61,171 nucleotides of DNA from a virus (IMGVR_UViG_3300008111_001779:1-61171), one strand, 5' to 3'. Shown: positions 5,405 to 58,777, numbered from the stretch's first letter. Made by a program: numbers and translations. Notes: generated by a model not told the origin, from the sequence alone.

Positions 5405-6501
5405 TGATAAAGTTAGGTAGCTTAATAAAAGAAACTAATAGTAAAAGATTCAAATTAAATGCATCTCAATATGGTGCGTTGGATAATTTATTTTCCAAAT
5501 TTGGTGCTGATATTGATGATATTACTGAAAACATTTCAGAAGCACCTAAACCCGATTTCACAAAAATGTCACCTGATGAATTAGAGAAAGGTGGATATGT
5601 TATTGCAGTTGATAAAGGAGTATTGGATAATTTAGAAGGATTTTTAGAAGCAGGACTAGAAGCAAAGGGTTGGTACGAAGATATGAATAAAAAGATGTTA
5701 AGTGCATTGGGTGAATCTGATGGATGTTTATTTCTTATCTTAATGGCAATATTTTCACCACAAAATAAATTAGCACAAAACTTTTTATTAGCCGCAAGAT
5801 GTTTTGAAGGTATAAAAGCTGATATTAAAGACCCAAAAAGAATTGAAAGATTTAATGAAATGATTTCTATGCAACCAAATGATTTATACAAAAAAATCAA
5901 AGCTGGTGAATTTAGAGATATGGAAACAATTGAAAGAATGGTTAAGAATGTTAGAAACTTACCATCATATCTTTCTAATTTAGTGAGAGCATTAAGACTA
6001 TATTCATCAAAAGGATTTAACTTTTCTAAATCAGATGTAGTAAATGAGATAGCAAGACACTTTACACCTTCTGGAGCATTAGGAACTGAAACTGTAATAT
6101 CAGCAGAAAAAGTATTTTCTTTTACTCTGAATCTATTAGACCCAAACTACGAATTTGAAGGTGGTTGGTTGCCGGTTACAATGGATACTTGGATGGCATC
6201 ATTTTTTTACCCACATATGGATAAAAAAGAAAAATCAAAGTTTTTAGGTAAGACTGCAAATTATGTTTATATTGCAAAATTAACGCAAGAATTGGCAAGT
6301 AAATTTGGAATGAAACCATTGGAAATGCAAGCAGTAATTTGGGTAGCAATGATTAAGAAAAAGCAAGGTGCAAATTACGATGTGACATTTGATAACGCAA
6401 TTAAAAAGAATTTAGATAAACTTAAAGTGAAGATTGATGAAATGCAGGATATAGAATCTTTTTATCAAAAAGTTATTACAGTAGTTGGTGCAAAAGCTTA
6501 G
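5404..6501 (+). CDS. Putative capsid-targeted protein of 365 residues
   Basis: I place the start at ATG 5404, which overlaps the previous stop (TAATG) and gives MIKLGSLIKETNSKR, again with I-K-E at positions 8-10. An upstream in-frame ATG at 5347 would add 19 residues and hide this N-terminus. The protein is mostly helical with hydrophobic patches (about 105-125, SDGCLFLILMAIFS). Near residue 260 there is MDTWMASFFYP, and near 300 EMQAVIWVAMIKKKQG. I do not recognise a catalytic motif. The setting suggests an internal head protein delivered with DNA. Confidence 0.5.
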   Translation: MIKLGSLIKETNSKRFKLNASQYGALDNLFSKFGADIDDITENISEAPKPDFTKMSPDELEKGGYVIAVDKGVLDNLEGFLEAGLEAKGWYEDMNKKMLSALGESDGCLFLILMAIFSPQNKLAQNFLLAARCFEGIKADIKDPKRIERFNEMISMQPNDLYKKIKAGEFRDMETIERMVKNVRNLPSYLSNLVRALRLYSSKGFNFSKSDVVNEIARHFTPSGALGTETVISAEKVFSFTLNLLDPNYEFEGGWLPVTMDTWMASFFYPHMDKKEKSKFLGKTANYVYIAKLTQELASKFGMKPLEMQAVIWVAMIKKKQGANYDVTFDNAIKKNLDKLKVKIDEMQDIESFYQKVITVVGAKA

Positions 6502-6505
6502 CAAG

Positions 6506-7318
6506 ATGATAAACGAATGTATTATTGTATCTAAAGAAGTTGGAGATAAGTTTATCCTTGCTAAAAATAGGGATAGAACTTATAATCCTGAACTTGAAAT
6601 TGTTCACACTATAATAGATGGTGTTGAAGTTGCATACCTACATGATTTAATTACTGATTGGAGTGAAGGATTAAATGAGCATGGTATTGGTGTAGTAAAC
6701 TCTGCACTATTAGTGGGACATGACGAAGCAGAAGCAAAGATAGTAAAGAAAGGCGGTAAGCCGGGTCCTGATGGTGATAAGATGAGAAACATTATAAAAC
6801 AACCATCAATTAAAGAAGCACTAAAAGCTGCTGTAACATATAAGGGTAAGAGTGGATTATCACTTAAAGGGCACACATTTGTTTCATCCCCAAAACATAT
6901 GGTTAGTATTGAAACTACATCAAAACATAAGCCAGATATAAAAATACAAAACTCCGAATCACCTGTTGTTCGTACTAATCATGGACATCTTTTTACTGAT
7001 GCAGGATATACGCATGGTGAAAAATATTTGAGTTCTAAAATGAGAAAAATATCAGCAGAGAAATCAGTTGATAAAGTTGAGGATTGGAAAGAGATAGCTC
7101 AGGCAATGAGAAAAGAATTCTTTCCAAAAAGGCCTGCTTTAAATATGAAAAGAGATACATCTGAAATGTCTACTTCTTCACAAACTGTAATGAACCTTAC
7201 TGACCGTATTTTAGAAATCACTATTTTTAAAAATAAAGTTAAAGAGTTTAAAGGTATCAATAACCAACTTCCAAAAGATTACCAACCAAAGATAAAGATT
7301 GAGGTTATAGAATTATAA
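6506..7318 (+). CDS. Ntn-hydrolase, C45 acyltransferase/amidase-like
   Basis: The start is set at ATG 6506, five bases after the previous stop, giving 270 residues beginning MINECIIVSKE. Cys5 is the likely N-terminal nucleophile. AKNRDR at 19-24 matches the Arg/Asp pair of the C45 and related Ntn amidohydrolases. NEHGIGVVNSA near 60 and VVRTNHGHLF near 153 match later family motifs (C45 members have a T-N-H near this point). Such enzymes cut or form amide bonds in small molecules or peptides. The mature enzyme must lose the four residues before Cys5. These end I-N-E, which also fits the cut rule of the T4 prohead protease. The substrate is unknown. Confidence 0.6.
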   Translation: MINECIIVSKEVGDKFILAKNRDRTYNPELEIVHTIIDGVEVAYLHDLITDWSEGLNEHGIGVVNSALLVGHDEAEAKIVKKGGKPGPDGDKMRNIIKQPSIKEALKAAVTYKGKSGLSLKGHTFVSSPKHMVSIETTSKHKPDIKIQNSESPVVRTNHGHLFTDAGYTHGEKYLSSKMRKISAEKSVDKVEDWKEIAQAMRKEFFPKRPALNMKRDTSEMSTSSQTVMNLTDRILEITIFKNKVKEFKGINNQLPKDYQPKIKIEVIEL

Positions 7319-7338
7319 ACCCACTTTTTTCATTATAC

Positions 7339-7347
7339 ATATTTATA
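7339..7347 (+). promoter_or_regulatory. Late-promoter-like box ATATTTATA
   Basis: ATATTTATA ends 21 bases before the ATG of the first gene in the baseplate block, in a 50-base gap with no other feature. Confidence 0.5.
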
Positions 7348-7368
7348 GACATACAAAAATAGTAAAGT

Positions 7369-7761
7369 ATGTCAACGGATTTTGAAATATTTAAGGGAAA
7401 AAACTTAAGCTCCCTATTTGAAGATATCTATAACAATCAGGTATCTAAAAGACACAAAATAAGCTCACTTATTGAAGAACTTAAAAAAATGGTTAAACAT
7501 TCGGGTGATGTTGCAACCATAGGACCTGTATTGCATGGTCTAATTGATAGTTCAGTAAAGAATGATGACCAATTGGTAAAGTTGGCATCTATTGTTCAAA
7601 AAATTGTTGCTTCTGAAAAGAAATCGGAAGGACAAGATGGGTTTCTTACTGAATTTGAAAAGAATCAATTATTAAGAGAATTAGAAGAAACTAAACAAGA
7701 AGTTGAAAGAGTAGATGATTTGGAATTTGAATTAGAAGAACTTAAAAAATCAGTAAAGTAA
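7369..7761 (+). CDS. Small helical protein at head of baseplate operon
   Basis: The protein has 130 residues, almost all predicted helix, with a C-terminal charged coiled coil (LLRELEETKQEVERVDDLEF). No family recognised. It starts the transcription unit that leads into the hub-like gene, and its stop overlaps the next start, so it is likely a tail or baseplate assembly factor. That role is inferred only from position. Confidence 0.5.
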   Translation: MSTDFEIFKGKNLSSLFEDIYNNQVSKRHKISSLIEELKKMVKHSGDVATIGPVLHGLIDSSVKNDDQLVKLASIVQKIVASEKKSEGQDGFLTEFEKNQLLRELEETKQEVERVDDLEFELEELKKSVK

Positions 7762-8996
7762 TGGCTTTTAATAGATATGGTGTAGGTAATTTAAGTCAAA
7801 ATAATGATTTAAATCTTTCACAAAATTATGCAGTAGTTTATGATGTTATTTTAGATAATACACATCCGCGTTATACTGAACCTGGTGATGTAGGAGCAGT
7901 TGTGTTTAGAAAATTTGGAAATACATTTACCAGTAAAGAAAGTTTACCTTTAGCCTATCCGCATAATAAAAATTTTATTGATTTACCTATCAGAAATGAA
8001 ATGGTAGAAATAATCCAAATTGAATCCACATACACATATAGAAGATACGCAAAAGATGTAGCAGGAAATAAAAATTTAAGTAGTTCTGCAAATACAATTA
8101 ATGCAAGATTTTTAAATATTAATAGTGATAGAGAAGATTTAAGTGGTGCAAATAAAGCAGAACATTATCAAAATGTAGCAAGTACACAAACACCAAGAAG
8201 TAGTGCAGATGGTCTAGCGCCTGATGAAAGTGGTTATGGTAAAGTATTTTCTCCCACAAATATACATAGATTATCTTTATTTGAAGGAGATACTTTAATT
8301 GAATCAAGATTTGGTCAAAGTATTAGATTATCGGCATACAATAATCCTGGCAGTACATTTTCACCAACTGTAACAATAAGAAATAGAGAAGCATCATCAA
8401 CACAAATTTTTTCGGCTAAATCTGGTTCTATCACCGAAGATATTAATAGAGATGGTTCTACAATATTAATGAGTTCAGGTCAGTATGTTGTTCCTTTTAT
8501 ACCTGGAACAATTGATGAAAAAGGTTCTACGGATTTTTCACAAAAACCATTATCATTCAAACCATATCCATCAGAACTCAAAGGTGACCAAGTATTAATA
8601 AATTCTGGTAGAATAATATTATCTGCAAGAAATGCTGAAATGCTTTTTTATTCAAAAGGCAATTATGGATTTATTTCAGATGGTGGAATGTCCATTGATA
8701 ATAAGCGAGGCATAAATGTTAATGTAGGTGAAGATATTCATGTTGTAACAAATGATAGAAATATAAACTTTTTTACTGGTAATGGTTCAATATTTTTAGG
8801 AAGTAAAGATTTAGAACCTTTAGTTAAAGGACAGAAGCTTGTTGAAATATTATCGGAACTAATTGACCAAATAGGAACTATGGTATTTTTAACTCCATCC
8901 GGTCCAACCGCGGAAGGACCAAAAAATAGACCGGAGTTTGGAAAAATAAAATCAAAATTAAATGATATTTTAAGTAAAATAAATCAAACAGCGTAA
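7761..8996 (+). CDS. Putative baseplate hub/spike protein, gp5-like
   Basis: The protein has 411 residues. The N-terminal part (about 20-110) looks like a beta-barrel (AVVYDVILDNTHPRYTEPGD, then ...NEMVEIIQIES), as in the OB-fold of T4 gp5 and VgrG spikes. Residues about 170-350 hold many short strands with a repeated S-G-x-I/L pattern (LINSGRIILSARNAEMLFYS, INVNVGEDIHVVTNDRNINF), as in a spike beta-helix. The C-terminus (LVKGQKLVEILSELIDQIGT) is helical. It lacks an obvious lysozyme domain; the lytic domains are in two separate genes just downstream. The call as hub/spike rests on this architecture and position. Confidence 0.5.
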   Translation: MAFNRYGVGNLSQNNDLNLSQNYAVVYDVILDNTHPRYTEPGDVGAVVFRKFGNTFTSKESLPLAYPHNKNFIDLPIRNEMVEIIQIESTYTYRRYAKDVAGNKNLSSSANTINARFLNINSDREDLSGANKAEHYQNVASTQTPRSSADGLAPDESGYGKVFSPTNIHRLSLFEGDTLIESRFGQSIRLSAYNNPGSTFSPTVTIRNREASSTQIFSAKSGSITEDINRDGSTILMSSGQYVVPFIPGTIDEKGSTDFSQKPLSFKPYPSELKGDQVLINSGRIILSARNAEMLFYSKGNYGFISDGGMSIDNKRGINVNVGEDIHVVTNDRNINFFTGNGSIFLGSKDLEPLVKGQKLVEILSELIDQIGTMVFLTPSGPTAEGPKNRPEFGKIKSKLNDILSKINQTA

Positions 8997-8997
8997 T

Positions 8998-9744
8998 ATG
9001 TCAGAAAAATTAGATAAAGCAAAACAAGCAGGACAGGGCGCTATAAAAGGCGCTGTTGGTGAAAATGCTGCAAAAGCAGAAGGTTTGGTAAAAGGTGGTT
9101 TAGAGAACGCATTTAATGGGGGAGCGGCCGCTATTAAACAGTTGTTGAATGGATTAAAAGATTCATTGGGAATACCAGATTTACCTAAAATTCCTAAAAA
9201 ACCAGCATTTCCACAATTAAAAAAATTCAAACCAAAAACTCCTCCAAAACCACCAATTTATCAAAAGGAAGAAAAGAAGTTTGATTACGCACCAGCTCCC
9301 GCAGTTCAAAAACCAGTGCCACCACCTAAACCACCAGAAGACCCTAGAGCTAATTTTGTAGAAGAATACAAAGGTTATAAAATATATTTGAGAGCTAATC
9401 TACCAAACTTTTATATGGAATCAAGATTTAATGATGGAGAAGTTTCATTTAAAGGACCTGAAAGCCGAAGTGCAACTAAAGAAGAATTACTTGCGTATCA
9501 AAAGAAAGTAATAGATGAAGCTATAGCAGGAAAATCTAAAGGAAAAGTGGCTTACAAATATGAATGGGATGGAAAACGAATTGATGTAGGACTTTACGAA
9601 GGAGATAGATATGTTGGTCCAGTTGGAGCATTTACATTTAAAGGTAAAGTTACCGAAGGAAGAGCTGTGGAATTATTTATAGAAAATTATAAAAATGAAG
9701 AACCTAATTTAGTATCTTGGGGGATGCAAAAACTATCTAAATAA
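8998..9744 (+). CDS. Tail-region protein with Pro/Lys-rich linker
   Basis: The protein has 248 residues in three parts: an Ala/Gly-rich helical N-terminus (about 1-55), a Pro/Lys-rich linker (about 58-118, for example KKFKPKTPPKPPIYQ), and a compact alpha/beta C-terminal domain (about 119-248) starting VEEYKGYKIYLRA. Not recognised. It lies between the hub-like gene and the two cell-wall hydrolase genes, two bases after one and overlapping the other, so a baseplate or hub-associated role is likely. Confidence 0.5.
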   Translation: MSEKLDKAKQAGQGAIKGAVGENAAKAEGLVKGGLENAFNGGAAAIKQLLNGLKDSLGIPDLPKIPKKPAFPQLKKFKPKTPPKPPIYQKEEKKFDYAPAPAVQKPVPPPKPPEDPRANFVEEYKGYKIYLRANLPNFYMESRFNDGEVSFKGPESRSATKEELLAYQKKVIDEAIAGKSKGKVAYKYEWDGKRIDVGLYEGDRYVGPVGAFTFKGKVTEGRAVELFIENYKNEEPNLVSWGMQKLSK

Positions 9745-11144
9745 TGTCTTGGCAAATTTTTAAAGATAACATTTTAAGAGTTTCAAACAATCCAGATGCA
9801 ATTAATAATATAGAAATTGTAGCGGACGCGTATGCCAAAGAATATGATGCTGCGATTAAAAGAGGATTTGATGCGTTTCACAAAACAAAAGTAAGAAGTG
9901 GTGATGTTGAAGGTATGAAGCAATTATTTATAAGTGCTTTACAAAAAGGATTAACTTCAAATCAACCATATGATTTAGTAGGAGAAATGGGAGAGGGGGT
10001 TAAAATATATTGGTCAACGGCTATTTTGGGTAATGATGTTATACCAACTATTTTACCACCTGTACCAAACGCAATTCAAAACATTGCTGTAAATGATAAT
10101 AGAGCAACTAACGTTGGAGTTTGGCAAAAACCACTTTTAAGCGTTGAATCAAATTTTGATTTAACTCCACAAGAAAGAATTCAGTATCAAGAAAATTTAG
10201 AAAGTGCAATAACTAAAAGAGATACTGCATTAGAAAACAATAAACAAGATATTGCAGATACATATACTGATTTAATAAATCATCTTGAAGGAGCTTTAGA
10301 AGAAAATACAAAATATACTATACCTTTAAAAAACACACCATTAGAACCACAAACAGTTGAAAAATCTACAAATAATACGCAAACTAATACAACCCAAACA
10401 AGTACTCAAACAAACGTTAGTACTCAAACAACAACCGTAAATTCAAGTGATATTCCAGATGAAGATGCACCTGTAAAAAATATTGATGATGTAATTGAAG
10501 CGGGGACTTTTAATACCGGTAAACCTTTTGTTTCTGGTTTTAAAGCGGGTGCTGGGTTTGGTGGAGGATTTGGCGGTGGTGGTGGACCTTATGGGCCTCC
10601 AACTTTTCCACCAAATGCAACTTTAGGTCAAAGGGTTTTGGCAATTGCATTAAGAGATGCAACAGTAACACCACCAGCACCAGTTGCGGAAAATCCAAAG
10701 TTTTCTAATTGGGGACATCCTAGAATAGTTGAAATTTTAGCTAATTGTGGATTAACAAGTCCTGCGCATTGGTGTGCATGTACCGTTTCTACCTGGTGGG
10801 ATGAAGCTGGTGCTGGTATTAAAGCAACAAAAAATCCAAATAAATTCGGTGACGGTCCTAATGGAGATTATAGAAGAAGTTGGGTACCTGATTGGTTTGC
10901 ATGGGCAGGTGCTAATGGAAGACTTATAGATTTGAGAAACGGTGGACATGAAAGTGTGAATCCACAACCAGGTTGGGCAGTTATTTATCATTGGCCTGGT
11001 AAAACAGTACCTTTTAATCATATTGGTATTTTTTGGAAAAAAGAAGGTAATAAGTGGTTCGGAGTTGATGGTAATGGCGCGGATAATTATTTAAGAACAC
11101 ATGAAATAAAAACAAGTTGTGTAGCCGGATTAGTAATTTGTTAA
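9744..11144 (+). CDS. Tail-associated CHAP-type cysteine peptidase/amidase
   Basis: The protein has 466 residues. The N-terminal half is helical, followed by a Thr/Gln/Asn-rich spacer (about 205-235), a conserved linker (235-272) and a Gly-rich hinge. The C-terminal domain (about 295-466) looks like a CHAP/NlpC-P60 enzyme: WCACTVSTWWDEAG with Cys344 or Cys346 as nucleophile, PGWAVIYHW, and FNHIGIFW with His426 as base. It should cut peptidoglycan peptide bonds at the tail tip on infection. The linker is shared with the next gene, which carries a different hydrolase. The start overlaps the previous stop. Confidence 0.7.
   Translation: MSWQIFKDNILRVSNNPDAINNIEIVADAYAKEYDAAIKRGFDAFHKTKVRSGDVEGMKQLFISALQKGLTSNQPYDLVGEMGEGVKIYWSTAILGNDVIPTILPPVPNAIQNIAVNDNRATNVGVWQKPLLSVESNFDLTPQERIQYQENLESAITKRDTALENNKQDIADTYTDLINHLEGALEENTKYTIPLKNTPLEPQTVEKSTNNTQTNTTQTSTQTNVSTQTTTVNSSDIPDEDAPVKNIDDVIEAGTFNTGKPFVSGFKAGAGFGGGFGGGGGPYGPPTFPPNATLGQRVLAIALRDATVTPPAPVAENPKFSNWGHPRIVEILANCGLTSPAHWCACTVSTWWDEAGAGIKATKNPNKFGDGPNGDYRRSWVPDWFAWAGANGRLIDLRNGGHESVNPQPGWAVIYHWPGKTVPFNHIGIFWKKEGNKWFGVDGNGADNYLRTHEIKTSCVAGLVIC
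10446..10559 (+). repeat. Shared linker, copy 1 (in the CHAP gene)
   Basis: This segment encodes 38 residues beginning SDIPDEDAPVKNIDD and ending with a Gly-Phe. It matches copy 2 in the next gene at 32 of 38 residues, while the flanking protein domains differ. It probably reflects duplication of a common hub-binding linker. Confidence 0.85.
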
Positions 11145-26746: not shown

Positions 26747-26977
26747 ATGTCAAAATTAGTAGAACTTTTATTAACTAAAAAACCAAGCGATTCAAAAGCC
26801 AATACAAAGGGTGTAGATAAAACTCCTATTGGTGTAGAGCAACCATTTCAAAATTCAAAAGATTTAATGAATTCTGATTTATCTAAATTTAGAGGTGGTG
26901 CAATTGGTGGTACAACAGGTGGATACAATAGTTCAAAAAAATACACTGATACCATTCAGACTTCTAAAACAAAATAA
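26747..26977 (+). CDS. Small hypothetical protein
   Basis: The protein has 76 residues: a short helix (MSKLVELLLTKKPSD) and a Gly/Ser/Lys-rich flexible tail. No family recognised. It has its own late-type box and its stop overlaps the next start, so it is probably a late gene. Function unknown. Confidence 0.45.
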   Translation: MSKLVELLLTKKPSDSKANTKGVDKTPIGVEQPFQNSKDLMNSDLSKFRGGAIGGTTGGYNSSKKYTDTIQTSKTK

Positions 26978-27384
26978 TGTCTTGGAAATTTAAGGGAAAT
27001 ATTGTTACAGAAGAAAACACACCTGAAGGTGCTGTTGGGTTTGTCTATAAAATAATACACACGCCAACTGGTAAATTCTATATTGGTAAAAAATCACTTA
27101 CTTCAACTCGCCGTTTAAAACCCCTAAAGGGAAAAGTTCGTAAAAGAGTAGTTCGTAAAGCTTCCGATTGGGAGAAATACTATTCATCAAACGAATGGAT
27201 TAAATCAGAAGTAAAAGAAGGTAGAGGTGGAGATTTTGAAAGAGAAATCATCCAATTCTGCTTTAGTAAAAAATCACTTACATATTGGGAAGTTTGGTGG
27301 CAGTTCAAATTAGATGTTTTGAGTGACCCACAATCTATTAATGAAAATTTAATGGGAAAATTCTTCCGAAAGGATATATATTAA
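26977..27384 (+). CDS. GIY-YIG-type endonuclease, Seg-like
   Basis: The protein has 135 residues. GFVYKIIHTPTGKFYIGKKS at about 21-40 is the GIY-YIG signature in its variant form (FVY and FYIG). A basic stretch with several Arg/Lys follows, then KASDWEKYYSS and a C-terminal TYWEVWWQFKLDVL with a plausible catalytic Glu. T4 has Seg homing endonucleases of this class. It lacks an added DNA-recognition region, so a compact homing enzyme or a DNA-processing nuclease are both possible. The start overlaps the previous stop. Confidence 0.72.
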   Translation: MSWKFKGNIVTEENTPEGAVGFVYKIIHTPTGKFYIGKKSLTSTRRLKPLKGKVRKRVVRKASDWEKYYSSNEWIKSEVKEGRGGDFEREIIQFCFSKKSLTYWEVWWQFKLDVLSDPQSINENLMGKFFRKDIY

Positions 27385-27667: not shown

Positions 27668-28603
27668 ATGTTATCGGGTAAGAACAAATTAAAAATAATC
27701 AATATATTAGACTCTGCATTGGGAGTTGGTTCATCTCTAAAAGGAAATGAACAAGCCCACCATTGCCCTTTTTGTAACCACCACAAAAAGAAACTGCAGG
27801 TTAATTTAGATACTCAAAGATGGCATTGTTGGGTATGTGATTCCAAAGGTAGAAGTATATCTTCCCTTCTTCGTAAACTTAATGTAGACCTGAGGGATAT
27901 ATCCGTTGTAAAAGATGTATATGGTGATGAGCCTGAATACGATGCAAAAGAGGAATATGTAGCTAAATTACAACTACCAAAAGAATTTAAACAACTATAC
28001 TTCAAACCAAAAGGTATCAACCCATCTTATAATCAAGCACTACACTATTTAAATAAAAGAGGTATAACTCAAGCCGATATCGTAAAGTATAACATCGGAT
28101 ATTGTGAAGATGGTTTATATGGTGGAAGGGTTATTATACCTTCATACGATGATAATGGTGACCTTAATTACTTTGTAGCTCGTTCATTTTATGAAGATGA
28201 GAAAATGAAGTATAAGAACCCACCAATCAGCAGAGATGTAATTGTATTTGAGAATATGATTAATTGGAACGAACCTATTACTTTAGTAGAAGGTGTATTT
28301 GATTCATTTTCGGTTAAGAGAAATGTAATTCCATTGTTGGGTAAATTCTTACTCAGCAAACTCAAAAATAAAATTATGGAAAAGGGTGTTAAGGATGTAA
28401 CAATTATGTTAGATTCTGACGCCGTTGATGATTCCACTAAACATACTGAATTCTTTCAAAAGAATGGAATAAAAGTACGAAACATTATACCAACCGATAA
28501 GGATGCTGGTGAAATGGGGTTTCAAAAAGTAAATGAAATACTAAAATCGGCCAAAGAAACCACATGGGATGATTTGGTGATGGCAAAGTTAAATAATATA
28601 TGA
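27668..28603 (+). CDS. DNA primase, DnaG/gp61-like
   Basis: The protein has 311 residues. A zinc-binding CHC2-like domain is seen at about 30-60 (AHHCPFCNHHKKK then RWHCWVCDS). The TOPRIM part follows: ITLVEGVFDSFS at about 204-215 with its Glu, and VTIMLDSDAVDD near 243-254 with the Asp pair. It makes RNA primers for lagging-strand synthesis, normally with a gp41-like helicase, which is not in this window. A host-type promoter fits early expression. The stop overlaps the start of the next recombination gene. Confidence 0.85.
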   Translation: MLSGKNKLKIINILDSALGVGSSLKGNEQAHHCPFCNHHKKKLQVNLDTQRWHCWVCDSKGRSISSLLRKLNVDLRDISVVKDVYGDEPEYDAKEEYVAKLQLPKEFKQLYFKPKGINPSYNQALHYLNKRGITQADIVKYNIGYCEDGLYGGRVIIPSYDDNGDLNYFVARSFYEDEKMKYKNPPISRDVIVFENMINWNEPITLVEGVFDSFSVKRNVIPLLGKFLLSKLKNKIMEKGVKDVTIMLDSDAVDDSTKHTEFFQKNGIKVRNIIPTDKDAGEMGFQKVNEILKSAKETTWDDLVMAKLNNI

Positions 28604-31600
28604 GTTTAAAAAGAATATATCATATTGCGGATATTCATATTCGTAATGTAAAGAGGCATAAAGAATTTAGAGGTGTATTTGAAAAGATGTTTGAAGAAAT
28701 CCGCCAAAGAGGAACGGAAGATTCAATCATTTATTTAGCGGGTGATATAGCGCATGCTAAATTAGAAATGTCACCTGAATTGGTGAAAGAGATTAGTTGG
28801 TTATTTACTGAATGTGCAAAACATTGTAAAACCATTCTTATTGCGGGTAATCACGATTGTAATATGAACAATAGTGACCGTTTGGATGTACTAACTCCAA
28901 TAGTAGAGGCGTTAAATTTACCAAACTTTCATTATTTAAAAGATACTCAAATATTTTGGGAAGATAAAGTAGCGTTTGCAGTATTCTCAATATTTGATAA
29001 TAAAGATAATTGGCCAAAGGCAGATGATTGGATAATGATGCCGGCCAGAAAAAAGATTGCACTATTTCATGGACCTGTGGACCATTCACAAACCGATATA
29101 GGCTACGTTGTATCATCGCGACATTTCACAACTGATATGTTTGATGGTTACGATTTAGCCCTATTAGGTGATATCCACAAAAGACAAGAACTAATCTCCC
29201 CTAAAGGTTGTAAGTGTGTTTATGCAGGTTCATTGGTGCAACAAAACTTTGGTGAAACTTTAGATAAGCATGGTTTTCTGGTTTGGGATTTAGAAACATT
29301 AACATATGAAGAAGTTGATATACAAAATGATTATGGGTATTACACAATGGATATTATCGGAGGAGTTGTTCCTGACGTTACTGATTTACCTATGTACCCA
29401 CGTCTTCGTGTAAGGTTTTCGGAGACAGATGCAGCAGATACAAAAAGGGCAATCACCGAAATCAAAATAAAATATGGAGTTGATGATTTTACAACTATAA
29501 GGACGGATAGTTTACAAAAGAGAAAGACCGGTGATAGAGATAATAAATTAGAGTTGGAAGATATTAATGACATCAACTACCAAAACTCTCTTATTACCGA
29601 TTACATCCGAAGAATGATGCCGTTTGTGAGCGAAGATGATATACAAGGAATACAATCCCTTAATAGAGAAATCAATAGTAGAATAGTTTTGGACGAGCTG
29701 ACAAGAAACGTGAAATGGAAGCCGGTAAGATTTGAATTCTCTAATATGTTCAGTTATGGTGAAGATAATGTAATCCACTTTGATAAGGTAAATGGACTGA
29801 TGGGATTATTTGCACCAAATGCAGCAGGTAAATCATCTCTATTTGATGCAATCTCATTCTGTCTATTTGATAAGTGTAGTAGAGCGTATAAGGCAGCACA
29901 TATTATGAATAACCGAAAAGGTGACTTCCATTGCCAATTAGATTTTGAAGTGGAGGGTGTAGGATACCACATTCGTAGGGAAGCAAGAACTATTAATAAA
30001 GGTAGAAACGTAAAGGTGGATGTACAATTTTGGAGAGATGGTGATGGTGGTAAGGAGATACTAAATGGAACGGAGAGAAGGGATACCAATCAAGTCATTG
30101 AAGGGTATGTGGGAAGGTATGAGGATTTCGTACTCACTGCTCTTTCACTACAAGGTAATAACGCCCTATTCATTGATAAGAGCCAATCAGAAAGAAAAGA
30201 CCTTCTTGCTCAATTTATGGGACTGGATATATTTGATAAGCTGTATGATATGGCGAGTGAGGAGATTAAGGAGGTGGCAGTACTTATCAGAAATTTCAAA
30301 AGGACGGATTTCACTTCCGAATTGGCGACTAAAGACGGCGACTTAAAAAAGAAAAAAGATGAATTGAAAGAGTTGAATGGGATGTTAAAAACCGATACAA
30401 CCGCTAAGGATAAAATTCAAAACCAAATATCTGACCTTAAGGAATCCCTAACACCAATTGATTCAAAGTTAGAACTTCACTCATTAGAGGTTTTAAGGGG
30501 TGAAATTAAGGAAAAAATTGAACTTAATAAGAAACATAGGGAAGATAAACAAAACAAAATCGTGGAGTACCAGACCCTTCTGGTAGAGGTTTCAGGTTCC
30601 ATTGGTAGACATGATATTGTAAATGGATTACCTATTGATACCGCTAAAAAAGAATGGGATGCTGCAAAAGGAAAATTGGCAGATATCAATCAACAAATAG
30701 ACCGTTTAGAATCTCAATATGAAAGAAATTTAGAGAAACTATCACATTTGGAAAAGCATGAATATGACCCAAATTGTAAATTTTGTATGAACAATGTGTT
30801 TGTAAAAGATGCTATTGCCACAAAAGAGATTGTAAAGGTTCAGGAAACACAATTGGAAGAACTTAATACAAAACATCATTCACTCATCAAAGAAGCTGAA
30901 CCGTTTGCCGAAGTTGAGGATGTTTGGAACACTTTATCTGATTTAAGAAACAAATACCAAAAAGGTGTAGTAGTATCTGAAAAGGCTGAAGCTGAGTTAC
31001 AATCATTAAATACTCATTATGAATTATTACTAAATCAATTAGATACTGTTCAGGCTGATATTCAGAAGTATTACGATAATCAGGCAACAATTGAAAAGAA
31101 TAAAAAGATTAATGAGGAAATTAAACAATTAGAAACTGATAAAAAACAATTGGAAAATCTTATTAAGGATACCAATAGAAAAATATTGGGTGTTACTGGT
31201 GAGATAGGTTCATTGGAATCATATATCAATGGTACTAAAGCTAAGATTCAAGAAGTTAAAGAATTAGAAATTAAAAACGAATTGTACACATATTATTTAG
31301 ATGCTGTAAAGAAAGATGGTGTTCCTTATGAACTTATATCTAAAGCGATGCCAGTAATTGAATCAGAAGTTAATAACATACTTGCACAGGTTGTGGATTT
31401 TTCACTTTCAATGGATACTGACGGTAAAAATATTAATGCTAAAATTGTTTATGAGGACCAACAATGGACTTTAGAGATGTGTAGCGGTATGGAAAAATTT
31501 ATATCGGGCCTTGCCATTAGAGTGGCTCTAATTAATATTTGTGGATTACCAAGACCTAACTTTTTAGTAATTGATGAAGGGTTTGGGACTTTGGATGCAG

Positions 31601-31752
31601 ATAATCTCTCATCACTCTTTATGATGATGCAGTATTTAAAAACACAATTTGATTTTATTTGGATGATTTCCCATTTGGAACAAATGAGAGATATTGTGGA
31701 TGGGTTAATTGAAATCCGAAAGGAAAATGGGTTTTCAAAAATTAACTTTTAG
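28600..31752 (+). CDS. Single-chain gp47-gp46 (SbcD-SbcC/Mre11-Rad50-like) nuclease
   Basis: The protein has 1050 residues and covers both subunits of a recombination nuclease. Residues 1-340 are the metallophosphatase: HIADIHIRN (7-15), LAGDIAHAK, IAGNHDCN (about 81-88), LFHGPVDHS and GDIHKR. From about 375 follows the ABC-type ATPase: Walker A GLFAPNAAGKSS (402-413), long coiled coil, zinc hook CKFC (726-729), returning coiled coil, signature SGMEKFISGLA (about 962) and Walker B FLVIDEGFGTLD (about 988). In T4 the two are separate genes of 339 and 560 residues. It should resect DNA ends for recombination-dependent replication and host DNA breakdown. There is no sign of a frameshift. Confidence 0.88.
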   Translation: MSLKRIYHIADIHIRNVKRHKEFRGVFEKMFEEIRQRGTEDSIIYLAGDIAHAKLEMSPELVKEISWLFTECAKHCKTILIAGNHDCNMNNSDRLDVLTPIVEALNLPNFHYLKDTQIFWEDKVAFAVFSIFDNKDNWPKADDWIMMPARKKIALFHGPVDHSQTDIGYVVSSRHFTTDMFDGYDLALLGDIHKRQELISPKGCKCVYAGSLVQQNFGETLDKHGFLVWDLETLTYEEVDIQNDYGYYTMDIIGGVVPDVTDLPMYPRLRVRFSETDAADTKRAITEIKIKYGVDDFTTIRTDSLQKRKTGDRDNKLELEDINDINYQNSLITDYIRRMMPFVSEDDIQGIQSLNREINSRIVLDELTRNVKWKPVRFEFSNMFSYGEDNVIHFDKVNGLMGLFAPNAAGKSSLFDAISFCLFDKCSRAYKAAHIMNNRKGDFHCQLDFEVEGVGYHIRREARTINKGRNVKVDVQFWRDGDGGKEILNGTERRDTNQVIEGYVGRYEDFVLTALSLQGNNALFIDKSQSERKDLLAQFMGLDIFDKLYDMASEEIKEVAVLIRNFKRTDFTSELATKDGDLKKKKDELKELNGMLKTDTTAKDKIQNQISDLKESLTPIDSKLELHSLEVLRGEIKEKIELNKKHREDKQNKIVEYQTLLVEVSGSIGRHDIVNGLPIDTAKKEWDAAKGKLADINQQIDRLESQYERNLEKLSHLEKHEYDPNCKFCMNNVFVKDAIATKEIVKVQETQLEELNTKHHSLIKEAEPFAEVEDVWNTLSDLRNKYQKGVVVSEKAEAELQSLNTHYELLLNQLDTVQADIQKYYDNQATIEKNKKINEEIKQLETDKKQLENLIKDTNRKILGVTGEIGSLESYINGTKAKIQEVKELEIKNELYTYYLDAVKKDGVPYELISKAMPVIESEVNNILAQVVDFSLSMDTDGKNINAKIVYEDQQWTLEMCSGMEKFISGLAIRVALINICGLPRPNFLVIDEGFGTLDADNLSSLFMMMQYLKTQFDFIWMISHLEQMRDIVDGLIEIRKENGFSKINF

Positions 31753-31915
31753 TAACGGGTAATACATTTTTTGGTGGAGTCTTTTTAACAGATTCCACTT
31801 TTTCTTTTATAAGGGTTTCTACCAACCCATTAATTTTGTAACCTTTCTCCTTACAAAAATCCTTCAATAATTGATGTATTTGTGCATCAATTTGTATCAT
31901 TGCATATTTTTTCAT
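31742..31915 (-). CDS. Antisense 57-residue ribbon-helix-helix-like regulator
   Basis: This is the only minus-strand gene I can support. It starts at ATG 31915-31913 and stops at TAA 31744-31742, so its end overlaps the 3' end of the nuclease gene by 11 bases. The product MKKYAMIQIDAQIHQLLKDF (1-20) has the layout of ribbon-helix-helix DNA-binding proteins: a short strand (AMIQID), helix A (AQIHQLLKDFCKEKG), a turn (YKIN), helix B (GLVETLIKEKVESV), then a basic tail. A purine-rich stretch (AAAGAAGTGT) precedes the start. It fills most of the 252-base gap before the tail fibre gene. It could repress the fibre or nuclease promoters; this is a guess from position. Confidence 0.6.
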   Translation of the reverse strand: MKKYAMIQIDAQIHQLLKDFCKEKGYKINGLVETLIKEKVESVKKTPPKNVLPVTKS

Positions 31916-45763: not shown

Positions 45764-48580
45764 ATGAAGGGATTAGCAAAATTTTTAGTAGAAACAATAT
45801 TGGGAGAAGCGGCTGAGATAGACAAAGTGGTTGTTGTCTATTCAGGCCGCTTTCAACCATTTCACAAAGGGCACTTTGCCACATACGAACATTTAGTTAA
45901 GAAGTTCGGAAAAGATAGCGTGTACATTGGAACTTCTGATGTTACCGATTCAAAAAAATCTCCTTTTGGGTTTAGAGAGAAAAAGGCTATAATGCAAAAA
46001 ATGTTTGGTATTCCATCAAACAAAATAGTAAGTATAAAAAACCCATACGCTCCAGAAGAAATATTAAACAAATTTGATTCAGATACCACAGCCTTTGTGA
46101 CTGCGGTGGGTGAAAAGGATTCATCACGTTTAAGTGGTAAATATTTTAAACCATATAAGGGTAAAGTAGATACTGGTTATTTAGATAGAGGATATGTTTA
46201 TATTGCACCAGCTCAATCAAATCCAATTAGTGGTACTGATGTTCGTTATTGGTTAAGTGCAGGAAGCGTTGCAGATAGAAAGAAAGGGTTCTTAAAAGCA
46301 TACCCAAAGTTTGATGAGCAGATATTCAAAATGATTACTCTGAAACTAAAATCTCTGAAAGAATATATAAACGAAGAAATTAAACTTAACGTTAAAGTTG
46401 GTGATACGATTCTTATGGGTAGGTTTAAAAACAAAAAAGTAGTTGTTAAATCTATAAGTAAAGATGAATATGGAATGCCAACAATTAATGGTAAAAAAGC
46501 AGTAACATTTAGAATTCCTAAAAAAGAGCAACTAAAAGAAATTTCGGTTCAATTTGCAAACGGCGTAGAAAGAATAGAAACAGACGATGGTACAGGTCCT
46601 TTTGCATCATCTTGGAAACAATACCACAATCAGGCTAAAACAAGAGGTAAAAAAATTGGATATGATGTGGTTGATAGACCTGACGAATTAAAAAAAGAAA
46701 AAGAATTAGTAAACTATAAAGAGATGGACCCGAGAAATCAGGTTACTAATTTTCCAATTATGCAAGAACCTAAAAATACCGATTCTATTGGGAAATTTAC
46801 AGCAAAACGTGCGTACACAAACTGGTTAGGTGATGCCTTAAAAGCAGTAAAAGATTTGGGTTGGGAAGAAGCATTGACCACAAAAGAAAAAGAACAAAGA
46901 AAACAGGCCGAAATGGATGGTAAAGCAAATATAAAGGTTGTAAAAGAGGGATTAATATCAGAGGATGAAATCAATCAAATAGTTGATGAGATTATGGGTG
47001 AGATGGGATTACCAGGAGGAGCGGGAGTTGGTTTAAGTTTACCTGGTGGATATATCAATGGTGCACCGAATCCAAAAGATGTTAAGAAATTAAAATCTAA
47101 ATTGGATAAAGATGGTAGCGAAGAATATACTAAAGTAAAAGAAGATAAAATACCTGGTGGATTGGCAAAAGGTATGACATTATCAGATATAGCTAAACAT
47201 CATAAGATAAGTCCACAAACTTTAAAGAACGAATTTATAAAAGGATATGCTGTTGAAAGAGAACATACAACTGATATAGAAGTTGCTAAAGAAATTGCAT
47301 TAGACCATTTGTACGAAGACCCAAATTATTATAGTAAACTTTCCAAAATTGAAACCCCATTAAGTGAGGGTTTACTTTTAGAAGGTGGAGCATATGGTCA
47401 TATGAATCACCCGTTTGATATTCAGATGAATCTTACATTTGGTGACCTTAAACAAATTGTAGTAAGAGCATTAAATGGTGATTTGGATTTGGCAAGAGAA
47501 AAAACCGATGGACAGGCGTTGGCAATTAGTTGGGTAAATGGTAGATTAGTTGCGGCAAGAAACAAATCACATACAAAAAATCAGGGTGAAGGTGCTATGA
47601 CTATTGGTCAAGTTGCAAAACAATTTGCTGGTAGAGGTGCTTTAACCGATGCTTATACATTTGCAATGAATGACCTTTCAAAAGCAATAGCTGCATTATC
47701 CGAACCACAAAGAAAGAAGATTTTTAAGGATGGTAAATGTTTTATGAATTTAGAAGTAATATATCCTCAAAACTCTAATGTAATTCCATATGGTCAACCG
47801 CTGTTAGTGTTTCATGGTACTTTTGAATATGATAAAGAAGGTGAGGTAATTGGTGAGAATCAGGAAGCTGCAAAAATATTAGCTGGAATGATTAAGCAGG
47901 TTAATAAAGATGTTCAGGATACATATACAATTCAAGGACCTCCAATGCAATCTTTACCTAAATCACAAGAACTTTCTAAACTACAAGGTAAATACATATC
48001 AATGATTAATAGACTTCAAAAAGAGTTTGGATTAGCAGATTCCGATGGAGTTGCGGATTACCATCAAGCTTGGTGGACTAATTTTGTAGAAAAGAATGCA
48101 AAAAAGTTAGATATTGGTTCAAAAATAGGATTGGTTAAGAGATGGGCGTTTGGTGATAAATCAATGCGTATAAATCAAATACAGGATGATAAAATAAGAG
48201 CTTGGGCTGATAAAATAGAAAAACAAGACCAACAAAAGATTATGAAAGATAATCTTATGAAATTTGAAGAAATATTTTTAGGAGTGGGAGCGGATGTATT
48301 ATCATTTATGGAATCGGTATTAACAGCAAATCCATCAGATGCAACTAAACAATTGAGAAAAGAATTAGGAAACGCTATTAAACAAATAAAAGCAAGTGGT
48401 GACCCAAAGAAAATTGAAAAGCTAAAAATAGAACTAAGCCGTTTAAACGCTTTAGGTGGATTTGATAAAATTGTACCAAACGAAGGTATTGTATTCGTTT
48501 ATGGGGGAAATACATACAAACTTACAGGTGCATTTGCACCTCTCAATCAAATATTAGGTATTTTTAAATATTCTCGTTAA
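45764..48580 (+). CDS. NMNAT-like nucleotidyltransferase fused to ligase-like domain
   Basis: The protein has 938 residues. It begins MKGLAKFLVETILGEAAE, with L-V-E at 8-10 as in T4 capsid-targeting sequences. Residues about 20-185 are a nucleotidyltransferase like NMN or pantetheine adenylyltransferases (VYSGRFQPFHKGHFATYEHL with H-x-G-H, and NPISGTDVRYWLSAG). A small strand domain follows (about 205-265, KVGDTILMGRFKNKKVVVKS). The C-terminal half holds AREKTDGQALAISW (Lys580) and FMNLEVIYP, resembling motifs I and III of covalent nucleotidyltransferases (RNA/DNA ligases). An injected enzyme acting on nucleic acid or NAD is a reasonable inference; neither activity is proven. Confidence 0.6.
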   Translation: MKGLAKFLVETILGEAAEIDKVVVVYSGRFQPFHKGHFATYEHLVKKFGKDSVYIGTSDVTDSKKSPFGFREKKAIMQKMFGIPSNKIVSIKNPYAPEEILNKFDSDTTAFVTAVGEKDSSRLSGKYFKPYKGKVDTGYLDRGYVYIAPAQSNPISGTDVRYWLSAGSVADRKKGFLKAYPKFDEQIFKMITLKLKSLKEYINEEIKLNVKVGDTILMGRFKNKKVVVKSISKDEYGMPTINGKKAVTFRIPKKEQLKEISVQFANGVERIETDDGTGPFASSWKQYHNQAKTRGKKIGYDVVDRPDELKKEKELVNYKEMDPRNQVTNFPIMQEPKNTDSIGKFTAKRAYTNWLGDALKAVKDLGWEEALTTKEKEQRKQAEMDGKANIKVVKEGLISEDEINQIVDEIMGEMGLPGGAGVGLSLPGGYINGAPNPKDVKKLKSKLDKDGSEEYTKVKEDKIPGGLAKGMTLSDIAKHHKISPQTLKNEFIKGYAVEREHTTDIEVAKEIALDHLYEDPNYYSKLSKIETPLSEGLLLEGGAYGHMNHPFDIQMNLTFGDLKQIVVRALNGDLDLAREKTDGQALAISWVNGRLVAARNKSHTKNQGEGAMTIGQVAKQFAGRGALTDAYTFAMNDLSKAIAALSEPQRKKIFKDGKCFMNLEVIYPQNSNVIPYGQPLLVFHGTFEYDKEGEVIGENQEAAKILAGMIKQVNKDVQDTYTIQGPPMQSLPKSQELSKLQGKYISMINRLQKEFGLADSDGVADYHQAWWTNFVEKNAKKLDIGSKIGLVKRWAFGDKSMRINQIQDDKIRAWADKIEKQDQQKIMKDNLMKFEEIFLGVGADVLSFMESVLTANPSDATKQLRKELGNAIKQIKASGDPKKIEKLKIELSRLNALGGFDKIVPNEGIVFVYGGNTYKLTGAFAPLNQILGIFKYSR

Positions 48581-57416: not shown

Positions 57417-57444
57417 AAAAGTTTGGAATTACCAAACTTTTTTT
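57417..57444 (+). terminator. Intrinsic terminator overlapping the next promoter
   Basis: A 10-bp stem (AAAAGTTTGG paired with CCAAACTTTT, loop AATTA) followed by T residues ends the head unit. Its TTTGG arm is also the -33 element of the methyltransferase promoter. Confidence 0.85.
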
Positions 57445-57453
57445 GTATATTTG
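57423..57453 (+). promoter_or_regulatory. Bacteroidota-type promoter before the methyltransferase
   Basis: TTTGG (TTG at 57423-57425), 20 bases, then TATATTTG (57446-57453). The chosen ATG is at 57458, so the message is probably leaderless. Same design as the promoter at 40775. Confidence 0.8.
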
Positions 57454-57457
57454 TGTT

Positions 57458-58777
57458 ATGATTAAACCTTTCTCTATTTTAGACACTCGTTCTAAAGAGT
57501 GGCAAGAACGTAAAAGATGGTGGATTAACACCTATAATATTCAATCAGAATTAGGTAGAGAGAATACCGAATCCAGAGCCCGTTTTTGGGAAGATAATAC
57601 CGTTTCTATATTTGATGCAACACTTTGTGAAAAGATGTATGAGTGGTTCTGTCCAAAAGAAGGTAGAGTATTAGACCCATTTGCGGGTGGTAGTGTAAGA
57701 GGTATTGTTGCAACTGAAATGGGATTTATCTACAATGGTATTGACCTTTCCGATGAACAAATAGAAGCAAATAAAAAACAATCTCAAAAACCAAATTGGA
57801 TACAAGGTGATAGTGAGTGGGTAATTGATTCTATACAGGATAAAACTCAGGACTTTGTTTTTACTTGTCCACCTTACTATGATTTAGAGAAATATACCGA
57901 TGACCCGGCTGACCTTTCAAATATGGATGAAGATTCGTTTGATAAAAAGTATTATTCAATTCTTAACAAAGCTGCAAGAAAATTAAAAGATAATCGGTTC
58001 TTTGCAGTAGTTGTATCCGAAGTGAGAGAACAATCGGTAACTGGAAATTATAAGATTGGGAAGTATAAAGGATTAGTTTGGAAAACAATTAGAGCGTGTG
58101 AAGAAGCAGGATTGCACTTCTATAATGATATGGTTTTGTTCAATTCACAACATCAGGCATCCAGAGTGGTTGATACATATTTTGAAAGAAATCGTAAAAT
58201 AGCATCGGTTCATCAAAACATATTAGTATTCGTAAAGGGTAATCCGGATGTAGCAACCGAAGTTATTAATAATGGTGATAACTTTATGTGCATTGTTGAT
58301 GGTGTATCATATAGAAGTTTTAGAGAAGCTGCAATATCTATTGACCCAAATAATTTAGTTGCATCTGAAGTAGAGAGAAGATGCCGAAGTACAAAATCAA
58401 AATATAAAGATTGGCAAGTAATTGGTGAAGAAACTAATCCAACAATTAAATACGAAATTAGTGGAGTTCCTTTTGAGAATCCAAAACAGGTTGCAGAAAA
58501 ATTGGGAATTGAAGAATCTGAAGCTAGAAATTACTTTGAATCAAATAATCCAACATATCGTCATTGGGTAAAAGTAAATCGTAACGATATAAGTTATGAT
58601 GAAATGATTGAACTTCAACATCGTTCAAAAATAGATATTCAACTTCCAATTATTGAATGTGAAGGTTTACAATTTTATTCTCTTAAAGAGGCCGGAGAAC
58701 ACTTTGGATGTTCAGATGAAAGAATTCGTCAAAAATTAAAAGACGATAAATACCCATCATACATTTATCTTTTCTAA
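57458..58777 (+). CDS. DNA methyltransferase (TCPPY type) with NUMOD-like repeats
   Basis: I choose ATG 57458 (440 residues) because it follows the promoter directly; an in-frame ATG at 57443 lies inside the terminator and promoter. DPFAGGSVRG (near 73-82) is the SAM-binding motif and TCPPY (136-140) the catalytic motif of N6-adenine or N4-cytosine methyltransferases. Residues about 278-440 hold three similar units, each V-x-G-x-x-F/Y then a helix-turn-helix (GVSYRSFREAA, GVPFENPKQVAEKLG, GLQFYSLKEAGEHFG), resembling the NUMOD/IENR repeats of homing endonucleases. It probably protects phage DNA from host restriction. It interrupts the protease-scaffold gene order, so it looks like a later insertion. 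Confidence 0.8.
   Translation: MIKPFSILDTRSKEWQERKRWWINTYNIQSELGRENTESRARFWEDNTVSIFDATLCEKMYEWFCPKEGRVLDPFAGGSVRGIVATEMGFIYNGIDLSDEQIEANKKQSQKPNWIQGDSEWVIDSIQDKTQDFVFTCPPYYDLEKYTDDPADLSNMDEDSFDKKYYSILNKAARKLKDNRFFAVVVSEVREQSVTGNYKIGKYKGLVWKTIRACEEAGLHFYNDMVLFNSQHQASRVVDTYFERNRKIASVHQNILVFVKGNPDVATEVINNGDNFMCIVDGVSYRSFREAAISIDPNNLVASEVERRCRSTKSKYKDWQVIGEETNPTIKYEISGVPFENPKQVAEKLGIEESEARNYFESNNPTYRHWVKVNRNDISYDEMIELQHRSKIDIQLPIIECEGLQFYSLKEAGEHFGCSDERIRQKLKDDKYPSYIYLF

Follow-up and report, generated by a model that had tools for sequence, protein, structure and literature searches.

The Fused Reading Frame

The DNA considered here, a viral stretch of 61,171 nucleotides (IMGVR_UViG_3300008111_001779:1-61171, hereafter the window), raises the question of whether a single open reading frame can specify both the nuclease and the ATPase of an Mre11-Rad50 recombination enzyme and, if so, whether the joining of the two is genuine and what such an enzyme would do. 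The first-pass annotation had placed a gp47-like and a gp46-like protein in one chain at 28600–31752. These coordinates proved exact, since translation of the window gives an ATG start and a single stop-free frame of 1,050 codons on the plus strand. The gene and its parts are as follows.

28600–31752, plus strand: fused Mre11-Rad50 (SbcD-SbcC, gp47-gp46 type) gene, 1,050 aa
28600–29319, plus strand: Mre11-like metallophosphoesterase domain, about aa 1–240 (Pfam Metallophos, motif conservation, predicted fold)
29332–29502, plus strand: capping domain, aa 245–301, then a low-confidence loop, aa 303–317 (AlphaFold2 secondary structure, pLDDT)
29572–29676, plus strand: helix-loop-helix, aa 325–359, probably the domain by which the Mre11 half binds Rad50 (two model helices, family conservation, description in PMC3175470)
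29677–29712, plus strand: linker joining the halves, aa 360–371, 12 residues (AlphaFold2 model, junction alignment)
29713–30279, plus strand: Rad50 N-lobe, aa 372–560, with the Walker A-like APNAAGKS at aa 405–412 (AAA_23, conservation)
30280–31284, plus strand: antiparallel coiled coils, aa 561–895, with the zinc hook C726xxC729 (long model helices, conserved Cys)
31285–31749, plus strand: Rad50 C-lobe, aa 896–1050 (conserved motifs, dN/dS)

Pfam Metallophos covers residues 5–194 (37.8 bits against a cut-off of 21.5) and AAA_23, the Rad50/SbcC-type ATPase, residues 381–618 (58.8 bits against 27); SMC_N spans residues 379–1045 at a score below its cut-off. PHROG_77 (SbcC-like) matches residues 318–1049 [1e-61], and the experimentally solved sequence relatives of the protein are Rad50, SbcC and Mre11. 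The NCBIfam models score far below their cut-offs, TIGR00618 at 104 versus 478.5 and TIGR00619 at 28.9 versus 77.65.

An AlphaFold2 model run on a 47-row alignment (mean pLDDT 81) orders the chain as a nuclease fold to about residue 240, capping region, weak loop, helices, linker, N-lobe, coils, hook and C-lobe; its pTM of 0.45 means that the relative placement of the two halves is not readable from it. The helix-loop-helix, conserved in the family, is predicted as two helices, residues 325–339 and 345–359. In the model the last Mre11 helix runs to residue 359 (nt 29676), and Rad50 begins with a strand at residue 372 (nt 29713); these two points bracket the position near 29700 to which the junction had been assigned. 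In the Thermotoga maritima complex a helix-loop-helix at the Mre11 C-terminus binds the root of the Rad50 coil, and 9–12 residues can span the gap to Rad50 (PMC3175470); the predicted capping and helix-loop-helix region and the 12-residue linker of the model agree with that 2011 expectation. Fold matches in the PDB include Mre11-Rad50 and SbcCD complexes, for example 7yzp and 5dny. Among the BFVD matches listed, giant-virus proteins, Yasminevirus included, rank above every named phage protein, led by the full-length fused proteins from Tupanvirus, Harvfovirus and Catovirus.

Authenticity of the Junction

A search of IMG/VR returned at least 599 stretches, all encoding relatives, of which the best 80 were kept. 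Seventy-four of these 80 carry copies complete at both ends, 65–100% identical to the window protein, and every one reads through the junction without a stop (74/74); the remaining six are cut by contig ends. One contig (L001) is identical to the window. The fused frame of Microcystis phage Mel-JY01 is likewise uninterrupted. No missed stop or frameshift near the junction appeared in the orthologues or in the further fused relatives described below.

Across 73 aligned sequences there are no indels between residues 300 and 380. Nei-Gojobori-type counts over 460 pairs gave a dN/dS of 0.136 for the junction (residues 353–372) versus 0.127 for the whole protein, with values of 0.043 for the Rad50 C-lobe, 0.069 for the hook and about 0.23 for the coils. 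Given this ratio and the lack of indels, the linker is evidently translated and constrained, and the junction is, judged by these counts, under purifying selection.

A fused frame of this sort might also come from an assembly or sequencing error joining two adjacent genes. Such artefacts exist, the fused ORF of Listeria phage LMTA-57 arising only from one A missing in an A5 run, but for the window the explanation is refuted by the 74 complete, uninterrupted orthologues among the best 80 of at least 599 stretches, by the indel-free linker and by the purifying selection, and we regard its probability as negligible.

LMTA-57 (L119 2417–5446) was itself considered as an independent natural fusion and rejected. 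Over 701 bases spanning the junction its sole difference from a 99.9% identical relative is that single A; the relative and Listeria phage WIL-1 both keep the A5 run and have split nuclease and ATPase genes. The deposited fused protein, AID17555.1, is therefore probably the product of a missing base. BFVD also contains a 1,009-aa protein of this phage.

Another possibility is that the gene is fused but that internal initiation, or cleavage of the linker, yields a separate Rad50 half alongside the full chain or as the main product. In-frame starts (ATG, GTG and TTG pooled) do occur in the turn of the helix-loop-helix, at residue 339 in 73/73 sequences and at residue 340 in 70/73, both being Met in the window. 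Against this, only 15 of the 73 sequences have a Shine-Dalgarno-like motif ahead of position 339, and initiation there would split the Rad50-binding domain in two; we consider a separately made Rad50 half very unlikely.

Relatives and Phylogeny

Two further searches brought in proteins related to those of Mel-JY01 and a 735-kb phage; these are full-length single frames except where cut by contig ends and in one distant relative, L104. They add 26 complete fused relatives, 23–43% identical to the window protein where compared. The survey of phages for the same fusion that the first-pass annotation had proposed thus yielded about 100 complete fused relatives in addition to the isolate Mel-JY01, and the sequence, these relatives, the selection on the junction and the structural model all support the placing of gp47-like and gp46-like parts in one chain. 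All relatives were gathered by similarity to a fused query, a procedure biased against finding split close relatives.

Two of the relatives are broken. In LR756508.1 (484 kb; L082 5950–10175) the fused gene is interrupted just past GDIHKRQ, giving ORFs at 5950–6681, 6671–7588 and 7590–10175, the middle one with a weak TnsA-like nuclease match; this looks like a mobile endonuclease splitting the fused gene at its metal motif. Neither an intein nor an Rfam group I intron was identified in this copy. L104 (3322–6544) is broken inside the nuclease half close to the equivalent point, following GDIHKMQYM, by a frame shift and a short extra stretch, which may reflect a sequencing error or else a second insertion at this site. 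A stand-alone Mre11-like protein of 275 aa, 37% identical to the nuclease half of the window protein and with a canonical GHIH, was also seen (L124 2670–3497), on a contig binned to Paludibacteraceae; a primase lies near it, and a tail-fibre-like gene occupies, on the opposite strand, the place where Rad50 would be expected.

Four full-length fused copies were found in the genome collection, all in environmental MAG contigs of 11–109 kb. A bacterial or archaeal origin was considered and rejected, as these contigs may be phage contigs. In plasmids there was no fused match at the search sensitivity used; relatives there cover only 15–18%, all in the ATPase half.

FastTree trees were made for the Mre11 and Rad50 halves separately and for the two joined, with midpoint rooting and few split references; they contain no giant-virus or cellular fusion. 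In all three the fused proteins separate from the split proteins of T4/S-PM2, T5-like phages and Herelleviridae, with weaker support in the Mre11 tree, and T4 and S-PM2 form a clade of their own with the window protein outside. Both halves give broadly the same grouping, as would be expected if they evolved together. By these trees the window protein is evidently not simply T4 gp47 and gp46 joined.

Motifs of the Two Halves

The two motif sets had been described as full. All the other motifs are indeed present, with two reservations: the first His of GHxH is Asp191 and the first Gly of Walker A is Ala405. In a core alignment of 76 sequences D11xH13, G48D49, G83N84H85D86, H157 and H193 of the Mre11 half are invariant, and the metal motif reads G190D191I192H193 with D191 in 76/76. 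Walker A, signature, Walker B, H-loop (H1025, in the C-lobe) and a CxxC hook on coiled coils are all present and conserved in the ATPase half. The Walker B and the CKFC zinc hook noted earlier lie at residues 990–999 (Walker B/D-loop, VIDEGFGTLD) and 726–729, and both hook residues, C726 and C729, are Cys in 76/76. Ala405 also occurs in 76/76, and the ABC signature is C961-S-G-M-E-K966, that is, SGMEK instead of the usual SGGE (SGMER in one sequence of the core alignment). A405 and SGMEK are two family-wide departures from the canonical motifs that the earlier annotation lacked. With D191, A405 and SGMEK all non-canonical, enzymatic activity is not guaranteed.

One might accordingly suppose that the protein serves mainly as an ATP-driven DNA tether, its nuclease half being altered or without activity, as Asp replaces the first His of GHxH throughout the core family and also in several fused relatives from jumbo phages. 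Asp can, however, bind metal, and the other metal-ligand positions are invariant. GDxH is found, moreover, in pT24 and, as GDLH, in two T5-like split enzymes (T4 and S-PM2 have GHFH), which makes the Asp a recurrent viral variant and not a defect of the window copy. The same substitution is present in Mimivirus R555 (PMC3175470). We therefore think a mere tether quite unlikely.

Gene Neighborhood and Phage Setting

The genes and signals flanking the fusion are as follows.

27668–28603, plus strand: DnaG-type primase, 311 aa (PHROG_47, 1.9e-50)
31773–31799, plus strand: predicted hairpin resembling an intrinsic terminator, with a T-rich tail, downstream of the fusion gene (consensus scan)

The primase lies directly upstream of the fusion gene with a 4-nt overlap, and in 86 of 100 loci a primase is found no more than 400 nt upstream, the overlap there too being 4 nt as a rule. 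The window also encodes a terminase, a portal protein and a baseplate wedge, so it is a fragment of a contractile-tailed phage. Eight window-type and Mel-JY01-type records (89–274 kb) contain exactly one AAA_23 gene each, the fused one. RecA/UvsX is present in five of the eight, including all three longer than 170 kb, which also carry a B-family polymerase; the other three, of 89–133 kb, may be fragments. No RecA/UvsX was identified in the window fragment itself.

The PADLOC model LmuB (Lamassu) matches across the ATPase half [4.4e-29], as would suit a defence or counter-defence ATPase-nuclease in place of a recombination enzyme. LmuB is, however, itself SMC/Rad50-like and its match is limited to the ATPase; SbcC and PHROG_77 models score equal to it or better, the primase neighbour is conserved, and the eight related phage records searched lack any other gp46-like gene. 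We hold a defence role to be extremely improbable.

Three genes upstream of the fusion lies a SegE-type GIY-YIG endonuclease (26977–27384). Such a gene was matched by tblastn in 40 fused-gene loci and so is possibly a resident homing gene of this neighbourhood. Elsewhere in the window a 938-aa protein near the terminase (45764–48580) has a cytidyltransferase-like N-terminus followed by about 700 residues without assignment, and a 444-aa protein (57443–58777) matches DNA methyltransferase PHROG_498 and PHROG_12517, of unknown function.

Proposed Function

We conclude, with a probability of about 0.85, that this gene of a T4-like (contractile-tailed) aquatic phage specifies an Mre11-Rad50 nuclease in a single chain, which would resect DNA ends for UvsX/RecA recombination and replication. 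Two fused chains would probably pair to form the customary M2R2 head, the helix-loop-helix of each (residues 325–359) docking on the base of the Rad50 coil and the 12-residue linker connecting it to the ATPase. With ATP the heads would then close around a DNA end, while its hydrolysis would open the nuclease site; the zinc hook would tie the coil tips together. In this way the complex would trim DNA ends, leaving 3' single strands on which the phage UvsX/RecA recombinase could act, and these strands would presumably feed recombination-dependent replication and repair, as is thought for T4 gp46/gp47, which are believed to resect DNA ends (PMC3016280). By this analogy, ATP-controlled end resection for UvsX-dependent replication and repair is the most likely role of the fused enzyme. 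That a single chain fixes the stoichiometry of nuclease to ATPase is a fair inference, and a single-chain Mre11-Rad50 that holds the two at 1:1 would be a convenient subject for structural studies.

The protein is one of a group of fused viral enzymes whose relatives are found both in other tailed phages and among giant viruses (Mimivirus R555 type). Tentatively, these might represent one ancient viral lineage that arose once, evolved with nuclease and ATPase as a single chain, and has passed between tailed phages and giant viruses of eukaryotes, an idea which we consider rather unlikely. Were it correct, the GDxH nuclease site and the SGMEK signature would have co-adapted within a covalently coupled machine whose ATP-nuclease coupling would differ from that of the two-protein enzymes.

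Comparison with Known Systems

The fusion is real and common to a large family of aquatic phages, and fusions of this type were first described in 2011. The remark that T4 and bacteria use two proteins had implied novelty. Yoshida, Claverie and Ogata reported Mimivirus R555 together with twelve further Mre11/Rad50 fusions, including five in bacteria, others in eukaryotes and one in Bacillus phage 0305phi8-36 (PMC3175470). Since the window matches that paper on each testable point, the claim of novelty fails. By its published description R555 shares with the window protein the order Mre11-then-Rad50, the capping and helix-loop-helix regions, a short linker, and an Asp (Asp242 in R555, D191 here) at the position of His206 of Pyrococcus furiosus Mre11; R555 is a giant-virus protein of 1,351 aa, while ours is a tailed-phage protein of 1,050 aa. 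The environmental homologues of R555 were on scaffolds with phage primases, as is the window gene, and the abundant aquatic ones were proposed to be partly phage-derived (PMC3175470). The fusion was then visible in only a few environmental fragments, many of them suggested to come from phages (PMC3175470). What remains is a phage family with many members, represented by long contigs, such as the window with its genes for terminase, portal, baseplate and primase, and by a cultured phage, Mel-JY01; this fits the 2011 suggestion.

Proteins of Tenacibaculum phage pT24 (1,310 aa) and of the 735-kb phage LR756501 (1,202 aa) resemble that of the window in being fused in the same order and in having GDIH; they are longer, about 24–28% identical to it where full-length identity was measured, and form a separate sub-lineage. 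In passages of accounts of jumbo phages (PMC7824862) and of SPN3US (PMC5105663), SbcC and SbcD are treated as separate proteins. Our literature search found nothing on Mel-JY01 or on the biochemistry of T5 D12/D13, and no assay of any phage member of the window clade.

The gp47/gp46 pairs of T4 and cyanophage S-PM2 are the same two enzymes in the same order, in a T4-like setting with UvsX. Unlike the window fusion they are two genes with small ORFs between them, and they have GHFH, an NG-type Walker A and a clade of their own. Bacterial SbcD/SbcC and archaeal Mre11/Rad50 have the domains and fold of the window protein, usually as separate chains.

Of the phages compared, it is Microcystis phage Mel-JY01 that makes in vivo tests possible. 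Its protein [WWT39521.1, PP395634] is annotated only as "AAA domain containing protein," so that the database annotation misses the fusion. Like that of the window it is fused, being 40% identical to it over the full length, and a primase and a GIY-YIG gene lie upstream; it is 1,066 aa long and, unlike in the window, a 174-nt ORF separates the primase from the fusion.
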